Below, one piece after another: positions 50,683 through 54,379 of a stretch of DNA of 64,000 bases; the stretch's first letter is position 1; every line of letters begins with the position of its first letter. The notes below the pieces were generated by a model that saw nothing but the letters and a program-made list of their open reading frames with translations, was not told where the DNA came from and did no database searches. The DNA comes from Prosthecobacter sp. SYSU 5D2 (GTDB lineage: Bacteria; Verrucomicrobiota; Verrucomicrobiia; Verrucomicrobiales; Verrucomicrobiaceae). Position numbers and translations under genes: made by a program. The stretch spans positions 1 to 64,000 of the forward strand of contig NZ_JBBYXL010000016.1 of NCBI RefSeq assembly GCF_039655865.1, in the 5' to 3' direction.

Positions 50683-51954
50683 ATGCTCGATATCCGCCTC
50701 ATCCGCGACAACCCTGATCTGGTCAAAGAACGCCTCGCCACCCGCAGTGGTGACTTCGCCTCTGTGGTGGATGAGGTCCTGTCCATTGACAGCGCCCGCC
50801 GCACGGCGGAGACCGAGCGCCAGAAGCTCCAGGGCGACCGCAACCGCATCAGCAAAGAGATCGGCATGGCCAAAAAGAATGGCCAGGACACCACCGCCAT
50901 TGAGGCCGAAGTTCGCGGCATCAATGAGCGCATCGAGCAGATCGGCCATGAAGCCGACGCCGCCGATCTGCGCCAGCGCGAGCTCCTCCTCGGCCTGCCC
51001 AACATGCCGCATGAGGCCTGCCCCATTGGCCACAGCGCCGAGGAAAACCCCGAGGTGCGCGTTTGGGGCGAGAAGCCCAAATTCGACTTCGAACCCAAGG
51101 ACCACACCATCCTCGGCCAGCAGCTCGGCCTGCTGGACTTTGAGGCCGCCGCCAAAATCACCGGCAGCGCCTTCGTTGTCTATCGCGGCCAGGGTGCCCG
51201 GCTGGAGCGCTCCCTCATCAGCTTCCTGCTGGACCTCCACACCACCCAGCACGGGTATGAGGAAATCAGCCCACCTCTTTTGGTCAAAGCCGATTGCCTC
51301 GTCGGCACCGGCCAGCTCCCCAAATTTGGCGACCAGGTGTATCATAGCGCCGAGGATGATCTCTACCTCATCCCCACCGCCGAAGTGCCCGTGACCAACC
51401 TGCATCGCGATGAAATTTTAAAGCTGGAGCAGCTCCCCATCAACTACGCCGCCTACACCCCCTGCTTCCGGCGCGAGGCAGGAAGCGCCGGCCTCGGCAC
51501 CCGCGGCCTCATCCGCATGCACCAGTTTGACAAAGTGGAGCTCGTCAAGATCACCACCCCGGAGACCAGCATGACCGAGCTGGAAAGCCTGACCGCCAAT
51601 GCCGAAAAAGTGCTTCAATTGTTAGGCCTGCACTACCGCATCATCGAGCTTTGCACCGGCGACATCGGCTTCGGCTCCGCCAAGACTTACGACATCGAAG
51701 TCTGGGCCCCCGGCCAGGGCACCTATCTGGAAGTATCGAGCTGCTCCAACTTCGGCGATTACCAGGCCCGCCGCATGAACCTGCGCTACAAGGACGAGAA
51801 CGGTAAAAACCGCGTCCCCCACACCCTCAACGGCTCCGGCACCGCCCTCGCCCGCCTCTTCGTCGCCCTCGTGGAGACCTATCAGCAGGCCGATGGCAGC
51901 ATCCTCATCCCCGAAGCCCTGCGTGGACACTTCGGCAAGGACAGGATCAGCTAA
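50683..51954 (+). CDS. serS: Serine-tRNA ligase
   Basis: A 423-residue class II aminoacyl-tRNA synthetase charging tRNA-Ser. The N-terminal antiparallel coiled coil ([14 protein letters not shown]... [20 protein letters not shown]) is clear. Motif 2 is [12 protein letters not shown], and motif 3 is [16 protein letters not shown]. The last 11 codons plus stop are repeated 158 bp downstream with synonymous differences, so the present C terminus may have been supplied by an inserted element. Confidence 0.96.
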
Positions 51955-51957
51955 AGC
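51928..51957 (+). repeat. serS 3'-end direct repeat, copy 1 (in gene)
   Basis: Thirty bases covering the last eight sense codons of serS, the stop and three further bases. They are identical to 52086-52115. Upstream, the preceding three codons (CTG CGT GGA) differ from the second copy only at synonymous positions. Confidence 0.92.
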
Positions 51958-52076
51958 CAAGACTGGAAAACCACTAATAGGCACTAATTAACACTAATAT
52001 TCTAACCAGTAATTCAGGGTTCTGGGCATTAGTGCCTGTTAGTGAGCATTAGTGGTTTAAAAAGCCAGAACCCTGG
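51958..52076. other. Small element with interleaved inverted repeats
   Basis: Between the two serS tails lies 119 bp with two inverted repeats. The first has three CACTAAT-type units at about 10-bp period on the left (51971-51998) and three matching TTAGTG units on the right (52028-52053). The second pairs CAGGGTTCTGG (52015-52025) with CCAGAACCCTG (52065-52075). The arms alternate left1-left2-right1-right2, the order of an H-type pseudoknot. AT content is much higher than in the flanks. There is no reading frame. Confidence 0.7.
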
Positions 52077-52115
52077 TTGCGCGGCCACTTCGGCAAGGAC
52101 AGGATCAGCTAAAGC
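52077..52115 (+). repeat. serS 3'-end direct repeat, copy 2 (displaced tail)
   Basis: Reads [11 protein letters not shown]-stop, the same as the serS C terminus, in codons TTG CGC GGC CAC and onward. It is identical to copy 1 from 52086. It is detached from any upstream serS sequence and ends 9 bp before the next gene. Confidence 0.9.
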
Positions 52116-52124
52116 GCCGTCAAC

Positions 52125-52496
52125 ATGCATGAGGAAATCCAAGGCCTCTGGTTCTGTCCCTCTCCGGAAGTGCCTGGAGAGCTGGACTATTACCACTTCG
52201 ATACTTCCGGCAAGGTGGTCACTTTCACTCCCTTACCTCCGGAGCTGGGTCTGGGCCGTCAGTTGATGGCAATCGCCTACCGGACCGAGCCGGAGGGCGA
52301 AACCGGCTTTAGATTACGTTTAAGATCTCAGGATTCCTGGCAGCACATGCAATACCATCTGGTCTCTGGACTGTTGACCATCTATGATGATCGCGGCCAT
52401 GAATGGAAATTCTCCCAAGTCCCCGAAACTGAAATCCCGCCGTGGTTTGAAGAGCGTCTCACTGAGGAGCACCGAAAGCTGGAGGAGCGTCTGTAG
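52125..52496 (+). CDS. Small hypothetical protein
   Basis: A 123-residue soluble protein, rich in Glu, Pro and aromatic residues. The pattern is beta-strand-like throughout (GLWFCPSPEVPGELDYYHFDTSGKVVTFTPLP...), followed by a highly charged helix at the C terminus (FEERLTEEHRKLEERL). It resembles a small lipocalin/META-type fold only loosely, and no family is claimed. It lies directly behind the duplicated serS tail and ahead of an IS256 remnant. Confidence 0.55.
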   Translation: MHEEIQGLWFCPSPEVPGELDYYHFDTSGKVVTFTPLPPELGLGRQLMAIAYRTEPEGETGFRLRLRSQDSWQHMQYHLVSGLLTIYDDRGHEWKFSQVPETEIPPWFEERLTEEHRKLEERL

Positions 52497-52562
52497 CAAA
52501 GAGTGGTGTAAAGTCTGTTCTGTAAAATTGGTTCGGCCTTGACTGCGCCCCGATAACAGGGT

Positions 52563-52858
52563 GTGCAGCTCGGTCACGCCAACGGGTTCAAGCCCAAAAC
52601 CCTTGCCACACGCATGGGCCAGGTCGAACTGCGCATCCCTCAGGTGCGCCATGGCGGCCTGCTGGTGGACTGCGCCGTGCTCATCGCCATCGGCATGGAT
52701 GGCAAACGCACCATCCTGGGCGTCAGCGACGCTCACCCAGGTATCGGCGGCACGTCAGGCCGTCTTCCCCGCCGTGCCCTGGTCCCGCGTCGCGTGCGGG
52801 ACCAGCTCCATCTGCAACAGAGCGCACAGGCCTATGTGCCGCGTCTGGAGATGCGCAG
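52563..52858 (+). pseudogene. IS256-family (mutator-type) transposase remnant
   Basis: Recognisable transposase pieces in different frames: HANGFKPKTLATRMGQVELRIPQVR, then VDCAVLIAIGMDGKRTILGVS, SDAHPG, AARQAVFPAVPW in a shifted frame, and HLQQSAQAYVPRLEMR back in the first frame. In intact IS256-family transposases these blocks are separated by more than 100 residues, so the gene has internal deletions as well as frameshifts. No terminal inverted repeats or target duplication were found. The rest of the 52497-53191 gap holds no gene; a 40-bp repeat lies at 53081. Confidence 0.82.
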
Positions 52859-53080
52859 TTCGGCTCATGGAAGTGGCCATGCGCCATGGTGCCCTGGGTT
52901 ATGAGGCAATGGGCCTCCCCCTTCCCTTTTCCAATTTCCGCTTCGGTGTCTTTATTTTATGAGGCAACGCGCCTGATCGACACTTTTACAGAATAAACTT
53001 TGCACGGCCTGTCAGCCATGCATGCTGAAAGAGCTGGAATGTGCCGGACATTAGCAATGCGAATCTCTTTCTCAATCTGT

Positions 53081-53120
53081 TCCTGTAAATCCTGCCCATC
53101 CTGCAATCCTGTCGAAAATC
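53081..53120 (+). repeat. 40-bp dispersed repeat, copy B
   Basis: Same four-block TCCTG unit as at 49808-49847, with about four substitutions, on the same strand. It is 72 bp upstream of the PQQ-dependent dehydrogenase start. Confidence 0.8.
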
Positions 53121-53191
53121 CGGGCTTCTCCCTACGTTTTGTCTCTTCCCAAAGTCTGCGTTTTGCCTCAATCTCCCATCTCTCTCTCTTC

Positions 53192-54379
53192 ATGAAACTC
53201 GTCTCCCTTCTCACCTCCGGTCTTCTCCTGGCCAGCAGCGCCCTGGCGCAGGATACCGTCAAGCTCACCCGCATCTATGAGAACCTGGAGACGAAGTTTC
53301 CCATCGCAGTCGTAATCCCGCCGGATGACAGCCAGCGCCAGTTCCTGGCCCTCCAGCGCGGCCAGATCCTGATCTTGCCGGAGGACGAAAAAGCCGCCGA
53401 GGCCAAGACCTTCCTGGACCTCAGCAGCCGCAACATGGAGGCCGACAACGGCAAGTTTGAAGAAGGCCTCAACGGCCTGGCCTTTCACCCCAAGTTCAAG
53501 GAGAACGGCCTCTTTTACCTCTGCTACACCCTGCAGAAGCCCAAGCGCCTGGTGGTCACGGAAATGAAAGTCAGCGCCGATGGCAACAAGGCCGATGAAA
53601 GCACCGAGCGCACCCTCCTGGAGATCCCGCTGATCAACTGGAACCACCACGGCGGAAACATCCTCTTCGGCCCCGACGGCTACCTTTACATCGGTGTGGG
53701 GGACACCTCCAAGCGAAACGACGAGCAGCGCATGGCCCAGCTCAATGCCGTCCTCGTCGGCAAGGTCCTGCGCATTGACGTGGACAGCCGCGAATACAAC
53801 AACGCTTACGGCATCCCCTCCGACAACCCCTTTGCCGACGGCGTCAACGCCCAGCCGCAGGTCTATGCCTACGGCATCCGCAACCCCTGGGGCCTGCACT
53901 TTGACGGCCAGGGCCGCTTCTGGCTGGCCGATGTCGGCCAGGATCTTTGGGAAGAGATCAACTGGATCGTCAAAGGCGGAAACTACGGCTGGAGCTACCG
54001 CGAAGGCTCCCGCACCTTCCCCCTGCGCCCAGACCCCGCCCCGTCCGAGATCAACCTCATTGACCCCATCCACGAATACCACCACGGCGACGGACTCAGC
54101 ATCACCGGCGGCGTCACTTACATCGGCAATGCCCTGCCTGAGCTCAAAGGAGCCTATGTCTATGGCGACTTCGTTTTGGGTAAAATCTGGGCTCTGCGAG
54201 TGGACAATGATGGCAAAGTGCAGAGTAACGACCTCCTTTACACAAGCCCGCAGACCGCTGCCAACGATCCCAAAAAGAAGCCCAGCGTTCACATGAAGCC
54301 CACCGCCTTCTGCTACGATGCCAAGGGTGAAATGCTCGTCCTGGACTGGAACGGCGCCATCCATCGCCTCAGCAAATAA
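53192..54379 (+). CDS. Secreted PQQ-dependent sugar dehydrogenase
   Basis: A 395-residue exported protein (signal LTSGLLLASSALAQ) of the glucose/sorbosone dehydrogenase beta-propeller family. It oxidises aldoses to lactones with PQQ and Ca. Landmarks: GLNGLAFHPKFKENGLFYLCYT, NHHGGNILFGPDGYLYIGVGD, AYGIRNPWGLHFDGQGRFWLADVGQD, EINWIVKGGNYGWSYREG, and a final YGDFVLGKIWAL. Start at ATG 53192. It is followed 41 bp later by a DapA-family gene, probably in one operon. Confidence 0.9.
   Translation: MKLVSLLTSGLLLASSALAQDTVKLTRIYENLETKFPIAVVIPPDDSQRQFLALQRGQILILPEDEKAAEAKTFLDLSSRNMEADNGKFEEGLNGLAFHPKFKENGLFYLCYTLQKPKRLVVTEMKVSADGNKADESTERTLLEIPLINWNHHGGNILFGPDGYLYIGVGDTSKRNDEQRMAQLNAVLVGKVLRIDVDSREYNNAYGIPSDNPFADGVNAQPQVYAYGIRNPWGLHFDGQGRFWLADVGQDLWEEINWIVKGGNYGWSYREGSRTFPLRPDPAPSEINLIDPIHEYHHGDGLSITGGVTYIGNALPELKGAYVYGDFVLGKIWALRVDNDGKVQSNDLLYTSPQTAANDPKKKPSVHMKPTAFCYDAKGEMLVLDWNGAIHRLSK

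Follow-up and report, generated by a model that had tools for sequence, protein, structure and literature searches.

The serS gene of Prosthecobacter sp. SYSU 5D2 is followed, a short distance past its stop codon, by what looks like a second serS end, and the locus raises the question of how this second end and the structured interval in front of it arose. The stretch of DNA analysed, referred to as the window, was 64,000 nucleotides long; the features discussed are listed in Table 1.

The two copies of the serS tail

The last 11 codons of serS, stop codon included, and three more bases were repeated downstream with a start-to-start spacing of 158 bp. The copies were identical at 36 of 39 positions, including an exact run of 30 bases (51928–51957 and 52086–52115). 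The remaining positions (C/T at 51919, T/C at 51924 and A/C at 51927) gave the codon pairs CTG/TTG, CGT/CGC and GGA/GGC, all of them synonymous, so both copies translate to one identical 11-residue peptide. The preliminary description of this DNA, made from the letters alone, had reported the spacing, the 30 identical bases and the three synonymous upstream differences, each of which was found where it had been placed. Its view that the second copy is a real serS end also held: the tail 27-mer CACTTCGGCAAGGACAGGATCAGCTAA, allowed up to three mismatches, had two matches in the 5.87-Mb genome, both at the serS locus, so the repeat is not due to chance. With the tail confined to this locus, the dispersed copies of the hairpin described below do not carry it. 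All three differences fell within the first 9 of the 39 positions, for which the chance is about 0.01 (three of three); with a 38-nt version of the repeat it is about 0.04 (two of two).

Table 1. Positions of the features at the serS locus (numbering of the window)
Feature	Position	Strand	Description
serS	50683–51954	+	Intact, with 423 codons and a stop; full-length alignment with relatives (94 % amino acid identity to G038)
Tail copy 1	51919–51957	+	In-frame serS end plus 3 nt
Inserted unit	51958–52077		120 bp: hairpin with 10 bp to the left and 19 bp to the right; absent at the orthologous site of G038
Left arm	51968–51998	+	AAACCACTAAT-N3-CACTAAT-N3-CACTAAT
Loop between arms	51999–52027
Right arm	52028–52058	-	Inverted triple heptamer ending in ATTAGTGGTTT
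Tail copy 2	52077–52115	+	Displaced native serS end past the serS stop codon; 12 nt separate its own stop from the ATG at 52125
Downstream neighbour gene	52125–52496	+	Product of 123 aa, family unknown; in G038 a homologue with 48 % identity directly follows serS

An empty site in a close relative

serS was located in 36 of 37 genomes (that of SYSU 5D2 included) and then in 23 of 24 further members of the genus; 47 same-genus relatives were searched, and the serS end was readable in 43. None of these 43 had a second serS tail within the flank examined (mostly 1.5 kb), the best match covering 21 of 36 positions, compared with 33 of 36 in SYSU 5D2. The closest relative by serS protein was G038, whose gene was 85 % identical in nucleotides and in that respect no closer than three others. 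There, serS was followed by TAA, 12 nt and the ATG of the neighbour-gene homologue, and the site was without insert. In SYSU 5D2 it was copy 2, not copy 1, that lay 12 nt before the neighbour's ATG. Since copy 2 keeps the spacing seen in G038, it was taken as the native end, and copy 1 with the 120 bp as the added part. The preliminary description had suggested comparing serS loci of relatives with and without the insert; the comparison gave an empty site in G038 and no second tail in the flanks examined. The 120-bp unit at the serS end almost certainly entered as an insertion.

The 123-aa gene is likely the ancestral downstream neighbour of serS; at E 0.01 its product matched nothing in Pfam or NCBIfam. 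Just after it, at 52563–52904, lay a remnant of an IS256/Mutator-type transposase (PF00872, E 1.4e-5; NF033543 below its cut-off).

The serS product ends in GKDRIS (51928–51954), unlike the ends in the 43 readable same-genus relatives, which were mostly of the form G[AS][ED]KI-. As KDRIS is common to both copies and absent from the 43 relatives, the change in the tail predates the duplication, and the two copies do not represent an imported tail beside a native one of AEKIG-like form. The arginine codon was CGC in five near relatives (G038, G037, G018, G019 and G023), as in copy 2, and we thus read the CGT of copy 1, the copy that is translated, as a synonymous change that came later.

Structure of the insert

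The insert is built around two arms facing each other across a loop, each with three CACTAAT heptamers separated by three variable spacer bases, which gives a period of 10 bp, and with AAC before the outer heptamer. The arms form an inverted repeat of 31 nt that is 77 % complementary. Base 52077 can be assigned either to the insert or to the TTG of copy 2. The G+C content of the 120 bp was 40 %, compared with 60 % for the window, and 51952–52085 was predicted to fold at −41.3 kcal/mol as RNA (z −2.71 against shuffles) and at −20.4 as DNA (z −2.68). No ORF of 60 aa or more, and hence none of the size of an integrase, lay wholly inside the interval between the tails, which two mechanically called ORFs entered from outside (51622–51984, minus strand; 52042–52266, plus strand). 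Rfam searched at E up to 1 over 51000–53500 gave one sub-threshold match only, away from the insert; distant blastn against phage records gave no match, and no further copy with the flanks of the serS insert was present in the genome.

The preliminary description had proposed site-specific integration into the 3' end of serS by an element that brought a replacement tail, leaving either a minimal element or the scar of a larger one. A small gene-less element inserted at the serS end agrees with the lack of an ORF and with the empty site in G038, and this part of the proposal stands. Its other part, the scar of gene-end-specific integration with an imported tail, is not supported. Such an event would leave the gene end directly repeated, with the copies differing synonymously, and an empty site in relatives; against it, both copies have the same KDRIS end, unlike the relatives, and there is no integrase-sized ORF in the interval. 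Nor did any viral contig match the exact degenerate patterns for tail-encoding DNA, in its present or its usual form, and a displaced tail beside the repeat, which the preliminary description had suggested looking for at other gene ends, was found at none of 40 other family members. We therefore regard integration of this kind as very improbable.

A dispersed family of hairpins

The outer-arm pattern had 25 matches at about 20 places in the SYSU 5D2 genome, and the reversed control had none. Across the phylum, where the preliminary description had suggested that the repeat be sought, the triple heptamer (one mismatch at most) was present in 49 of 387 genomes, with no match to the reversed control in every row listed. 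It is near certain that the serS insert belongs to a dispersed hairpin family. The hairpins of the SYSU 5D2 genome appeared to be intergenic when judged by eye, without gene calls. The element at position 10503 of contig C5 was lacking in the relatives G037 and G019; exact insertion boundaries were not obtained from the orthologous sites of two other hairpins, the intergenic sequence being too diverged.

Pairing between the arms was compared over 27 elements from the own genome, the genus and the phylum. Heptamer positions were complementary in 17–27 of the 27, a figure inflated by the choice of these elements by their heptamers. The spacer figures are free of this effect, and were 15, 13 and 8 of 27 for the outer spacer and 7, 4 and 9 of 27 for the inner spacer. 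Where CACTAAT had changed to CAGCAAT, the opposite arm mirrored the change in 5–6 of 8 cases. To judge from these patterns, the arms look more like phased protein sites than like a stem kept for pairing alone.

Several other features of the family were noted. In a subfamily of three hairpins from the own genome (L121, L122 and L123, at C6:106632, C7:7020 and C8:46029) about 20–28 bases were conserved beyond each arm, so the repeated unit there is larger than the hairpin. CACAGAT- and TTCCGTG-type heptamer arrays adjoined CACTAAT hairpins in the flanks of L126 and L118, which suggests that a single genome can hold arms of several types. Arms were also clustered, with about nine to ten within 17 kb at L280 (G372, contig C34) and within 7 kb at L284 (G109, contig C59). 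Two solitary arms with complementary heptamers, 20 kb apart on one contig (at 77.7 and 97.5 kb), were considered as the ends of a large element; this reading was dropped because the span between them holds genes that, by eye and from general knowledge, we take to be housekeeping genes, e.g. panC.

Inverted arms at GxxExxY genes

Through the genomes with clustered arms a locus was reached (L285, in G282) at which a GxxExxY gene (TIGR04256/PF13366, PDDEXK_3) lay exactly between two inverted CACTAAT arms. Matches to this family at E up to 0.001 were found in 228 of the 387 genomes. At many of the GxxExxY loci across the phylum, inverted arms of the same plan were present, the heptamer varying by locus (CACAGAG, CACGAAG, CACGGAG, CAGGAT and others). 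The fixed-gap pattern AACCAC-N7-CAC-N7-CAC (one mismatch at most) detected an arm at only one of 30 GxxExxY loci (L297), in addition to L285. It missed most arms because both spacing and heptamer vary, and was replaced by reading of the flanks and by local alignment of the upstream flank with the inverted downstream flank, a score of 18 or more being counted as inverted arms.

By this measure, inverted flanking repeats were present at 51 of 65 GxxExxY loci, compared with none of 38 serS control loci and with 45 of 509 cross-pairs of flanks from different loci. These loci were the best-scoring places in the phylum listing, not a random sample, and were 65 out of 71, six having flanks cut by contig ends (L292, L300, L312, L315, L317 and L344); visual inspection showed that, of the 51, at least four (L328, L316, L318 and L321) had other inverted repeats, not heptamer arrays. 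With 39 more loci the count rose to 85 of 104, the other 19 being below the score, or to 84 of 103 once L285, found through its arms, was discounted; 104 of 105 loci were scored in this larger set, from which the duplicate L381 and all of the cut loci except L344, five in number, had been left out beforehand. Matched flank pairs had a mean score of 22.0, compared with 11.5 for cross-pairs, each locus having its own heptamer type on both sides. These arms are associated with GxxExxY genes, and we hold this association with high confidence.

CACTAAT arms themselves cleanly bracketed a GxxExxY gene at two loci only, L285 and L069, the latter in the same genus (G023) with the gene between two similar CACTAAT hairpins. 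In the fetched flanks of CACTAAT arms, a GxxExxY gene was found in 1 of 25 rows from the own genome, 1 of 24 from the genus, 2 of 30 phylum loci (with one weak case) and 0 of 3 viral loci, and in the flanks of serS control loci in 0 of 51. That most CACTAAT arms have no such gene nearby is expected if most are gene-less, though it is no proof. GxxExxY matches occurred in 44 of the 49 genomes with CACTAAT arrays and in 184 of the 338 others (Fisher p 7e-7; tallied by eye, with kinship ignored).

The SYSU 5D2 genome had three GxxExxY matches. One of them, L127, was an intact gene of 133 aa (E 8e-36) whose product had a PD...ELK stretch (by eye), as expected of PD-(D/E)XK proteins; no solved structure matched the protein at E 0.01. 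A CACTAAT arm lay just after this gene, but its orientation was opposite to that usual for 3' arms; on the 5' side no arm was seen. The GxxExxY genes of L127 and L069 lay between similar neighbour genes, as would fit either a single old insertion common to both or a hot spot. At least six other GxxExxY elements (L295, L299, L304, L309, L335 and L336) lay between genes that read by eye as gatA and gatB, and this gap looks like a recurrent place of insertion. In the window, a profile built for this analysis found no GxxExxY gene; the serS insert is thus a gene-less relative with arms of the GxxExxY design, not a full member.

The link could reflect no more than a shared taste for intergenic space, the hairpins being cellular regulatory or structural sites. 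This reading concerns the nature of the hairpin and is compatible with any of the explanations of the duplication given below. It would account for the predicted stability of the hairpin RNA, for the intergenic positions in the own genome and for the lack of a nearby GxxExxY gene at most CACTAAT arms, five of the 49 CACTAAT genomes having no GxxExxY match at all. Against it, arms of one heptamer type, particular to the locus, lie on either side of GxxExxY genes, and inverted arms were absent from all of the serS controls; we consider it improbable.

Direct repeats at other members of the family

Direct repeats flanking other hairpins were sought in 44 rows (24 from the genus and 20 from the own genome), of which the window itself, L066 (no recognisable heptamer) and the duplicates L074 and L076 were left out. 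None of the resulting 40 distinct members, which included 10 solitary arms, had a flanking direct repeat near the size of that at serS. The serS locus scored 32 and the best of the others 13 (L062; its own shuffles 9). L064 (12) and L077 and L078 (both 11) also exceeded their own shuffles, making four members in all, by 2–4, and scores of up to 13 were obtained from shuffles of other loci. It is therefore not borne out that the family habitually replaces gene tails.

Among the 51 armed GxxExxY loci, three (L318, L331 and L311) had direct repeats whose score exceeded that of shuffles by more than 3. L311 had a second repeat unit alongside, and only at L331 was the repeat flush with the arms. 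The repeat at L331, GAAAAAAATG, is A-rich and 13 nt long including the end of the arm; it reads as a duplicate of the start region of the next gene, and would then be a gene-edge duplication, the mirror image of the serS case. When all 85 armed GxxExxY loci were compared with shifted controls, only L331 exceeded them. Because the other 84 showed no more than the controls, the duplication at serS could also be an accident of recombination or copying.

Origin of the serS duplication

The explanation that we favour starts from an inverted-arm element of the GxxExxY type. A MITE-like copy of it, lacking the gene, would have inserted at the junction of serS and its neighbour, where the ancestral gap was about 12 nt, and about 38 bp of target, comprising the serS tail with its stop codon, would have been duplicated in the process. 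Copy 1 would then keep serS intact, and copy 2 would be the displaced original end ahead of the neighbour gene. A GxxExxY PD-(D/E)XK protein supplied in trans may have acted on the arms and moved the hairpin, a widely staggered break followed by fill-in producing the duplication; at least one intact copy in the own genome, with the ELK motif, is a possible source. An insertion at a gene edge would be expected to persist chiefly where the duplicated bases make the gene whole again; long duplications should then be seen at gene edges and seldom elsewhere. Several observations count against this explanation: duplications are not general in the family, the three differences are clustered, no other copy in the genome has the flanks of the serS insert, most CACTAAT arms lack a GxxExxY gene in the fetched flanks, clean bracketing of such a gene by CACTAAT arms was seen at two loci only, and 19 of 104 GxxExxY loci were below the score for inverted repeats. 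In addition, the 38-bp repeats are separated from the arms by 10 bp and 19 bp, although the L121–L123 subfamily also has conserved flanks outside the arms. As a whole we regard the explanation as evenly balanced; the narrower claim, that transposition duplicated the target at serS, may with equal justice be accepted or doubted.

The clustering of the differences at one end somewhat favours another account, in which an illegitimate or template-switch event took place without transposition at the site, the hairpin arriving by copying or one-sided recombination. The serS of a related strain, with its hairpin, could for example have been joined at microhomology in the end of the recipient's serS, the recipient's tail being left as a remnant. 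Synonymous differences confined to the upstream part of the repeat (p ~0.01) and repeats that are not flush with the arms would both follow, and the state of copy 1, CTGCGTGGACAC, was found in another member of the genus (L018). The donor would have needed the rare KDRIS tail, which none of the 43 same-genus relatives has, and no donor arrangement was found; such an event is possible, yet we think it rather unlikely.

Alternatively, the serS tail may have been duplicated in tandem first and the hairpin have come to lie between the copies later, or the hairpin itself may have promoted replication slippage. Hairpins can promote slippage, and the lack of long target duplications at the other family members examined would fit. 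For a tandem duplication followed by insertion, however, two rare events must have hit the same 38 bp independently, and the duplication alone was present in no relative examined. We give this account little weight.

Comparison with known mobile elements

The serS insert is MITE-like: it is about 100 bp long with terminal inverted repeats, has no gene inside and belongs to a family of many copies, of which larger relatives carry a gene between similar ends. It departs from MITEs in that no general target-site duplication was detected and no DDE transposase partner was identified. MITEs share their ends with an autonomous element; the GxxExxY genes bracketed by similar arms would be the candidates for that part here. 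A gene-end-specific integrative element would have an integrase and attL/attR sites and would itself supply the tail, whereas the serS insert has no integrase-sized ORF and the two tails share one unusual end.

A second likeness is to REP elements and REPINs with their RAYT tyrosine transposases, described as short dispersed palindromes and a small gene, bracketed by the same palindromes, that is the candidate mobiliser (PMC3116915, PMC3733652). Here too, palindromes surround a gene that may move them. REPs and REPINs are defined by a stem whose foot is the tetranucleotide GTAG or CGTC (PMC3733652); on that definition the serS insert differs, having neither foot, arms of triple heptamers and variable, largely unpaired spacers. 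The candidate partner is also different, a protein of the PD-(D/E)XK family instead of a RAYT. A RAYT partner was tried and rejected: at 10 Y1_Tnp loci of the own genome, an exact match to the arm heptamer was found in none of the flanks fetched, a few of these flanks being truncated where the contig ended. For a long and variable target duplication there is precedent in IS1634 and IS1549, whose insertions are described as leaving direct repeats of 8 to 514 bp (PMC2266710).

None of the literature matches listed, which cover the field in part, was a paper on these arms or on GxxExxY mobility. The GxxExxY family is named after its motif, and its entry as shown states no function. We tentatively suggest, with more reserve than conviction, that GxxExxY proteins and inverted triple-heptamer arms make up a mobile-element class so far undescribed, that the gene-less hairpins are its non-autonomous form and that the insertion at serS duplicated a gene edge of about 38 bp. 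Should GxxExxY genes prove to be mobile units, marked out by arms with three helically phased heptamers, a testable role would be gained for the family; a class of palindromic repeats would be explained, and the RAYT/REPIN pairing would have a nuclease-type counterpart. The serS locus offers a readable example of an element that entered a gap of 12 nt without breaking either gene.
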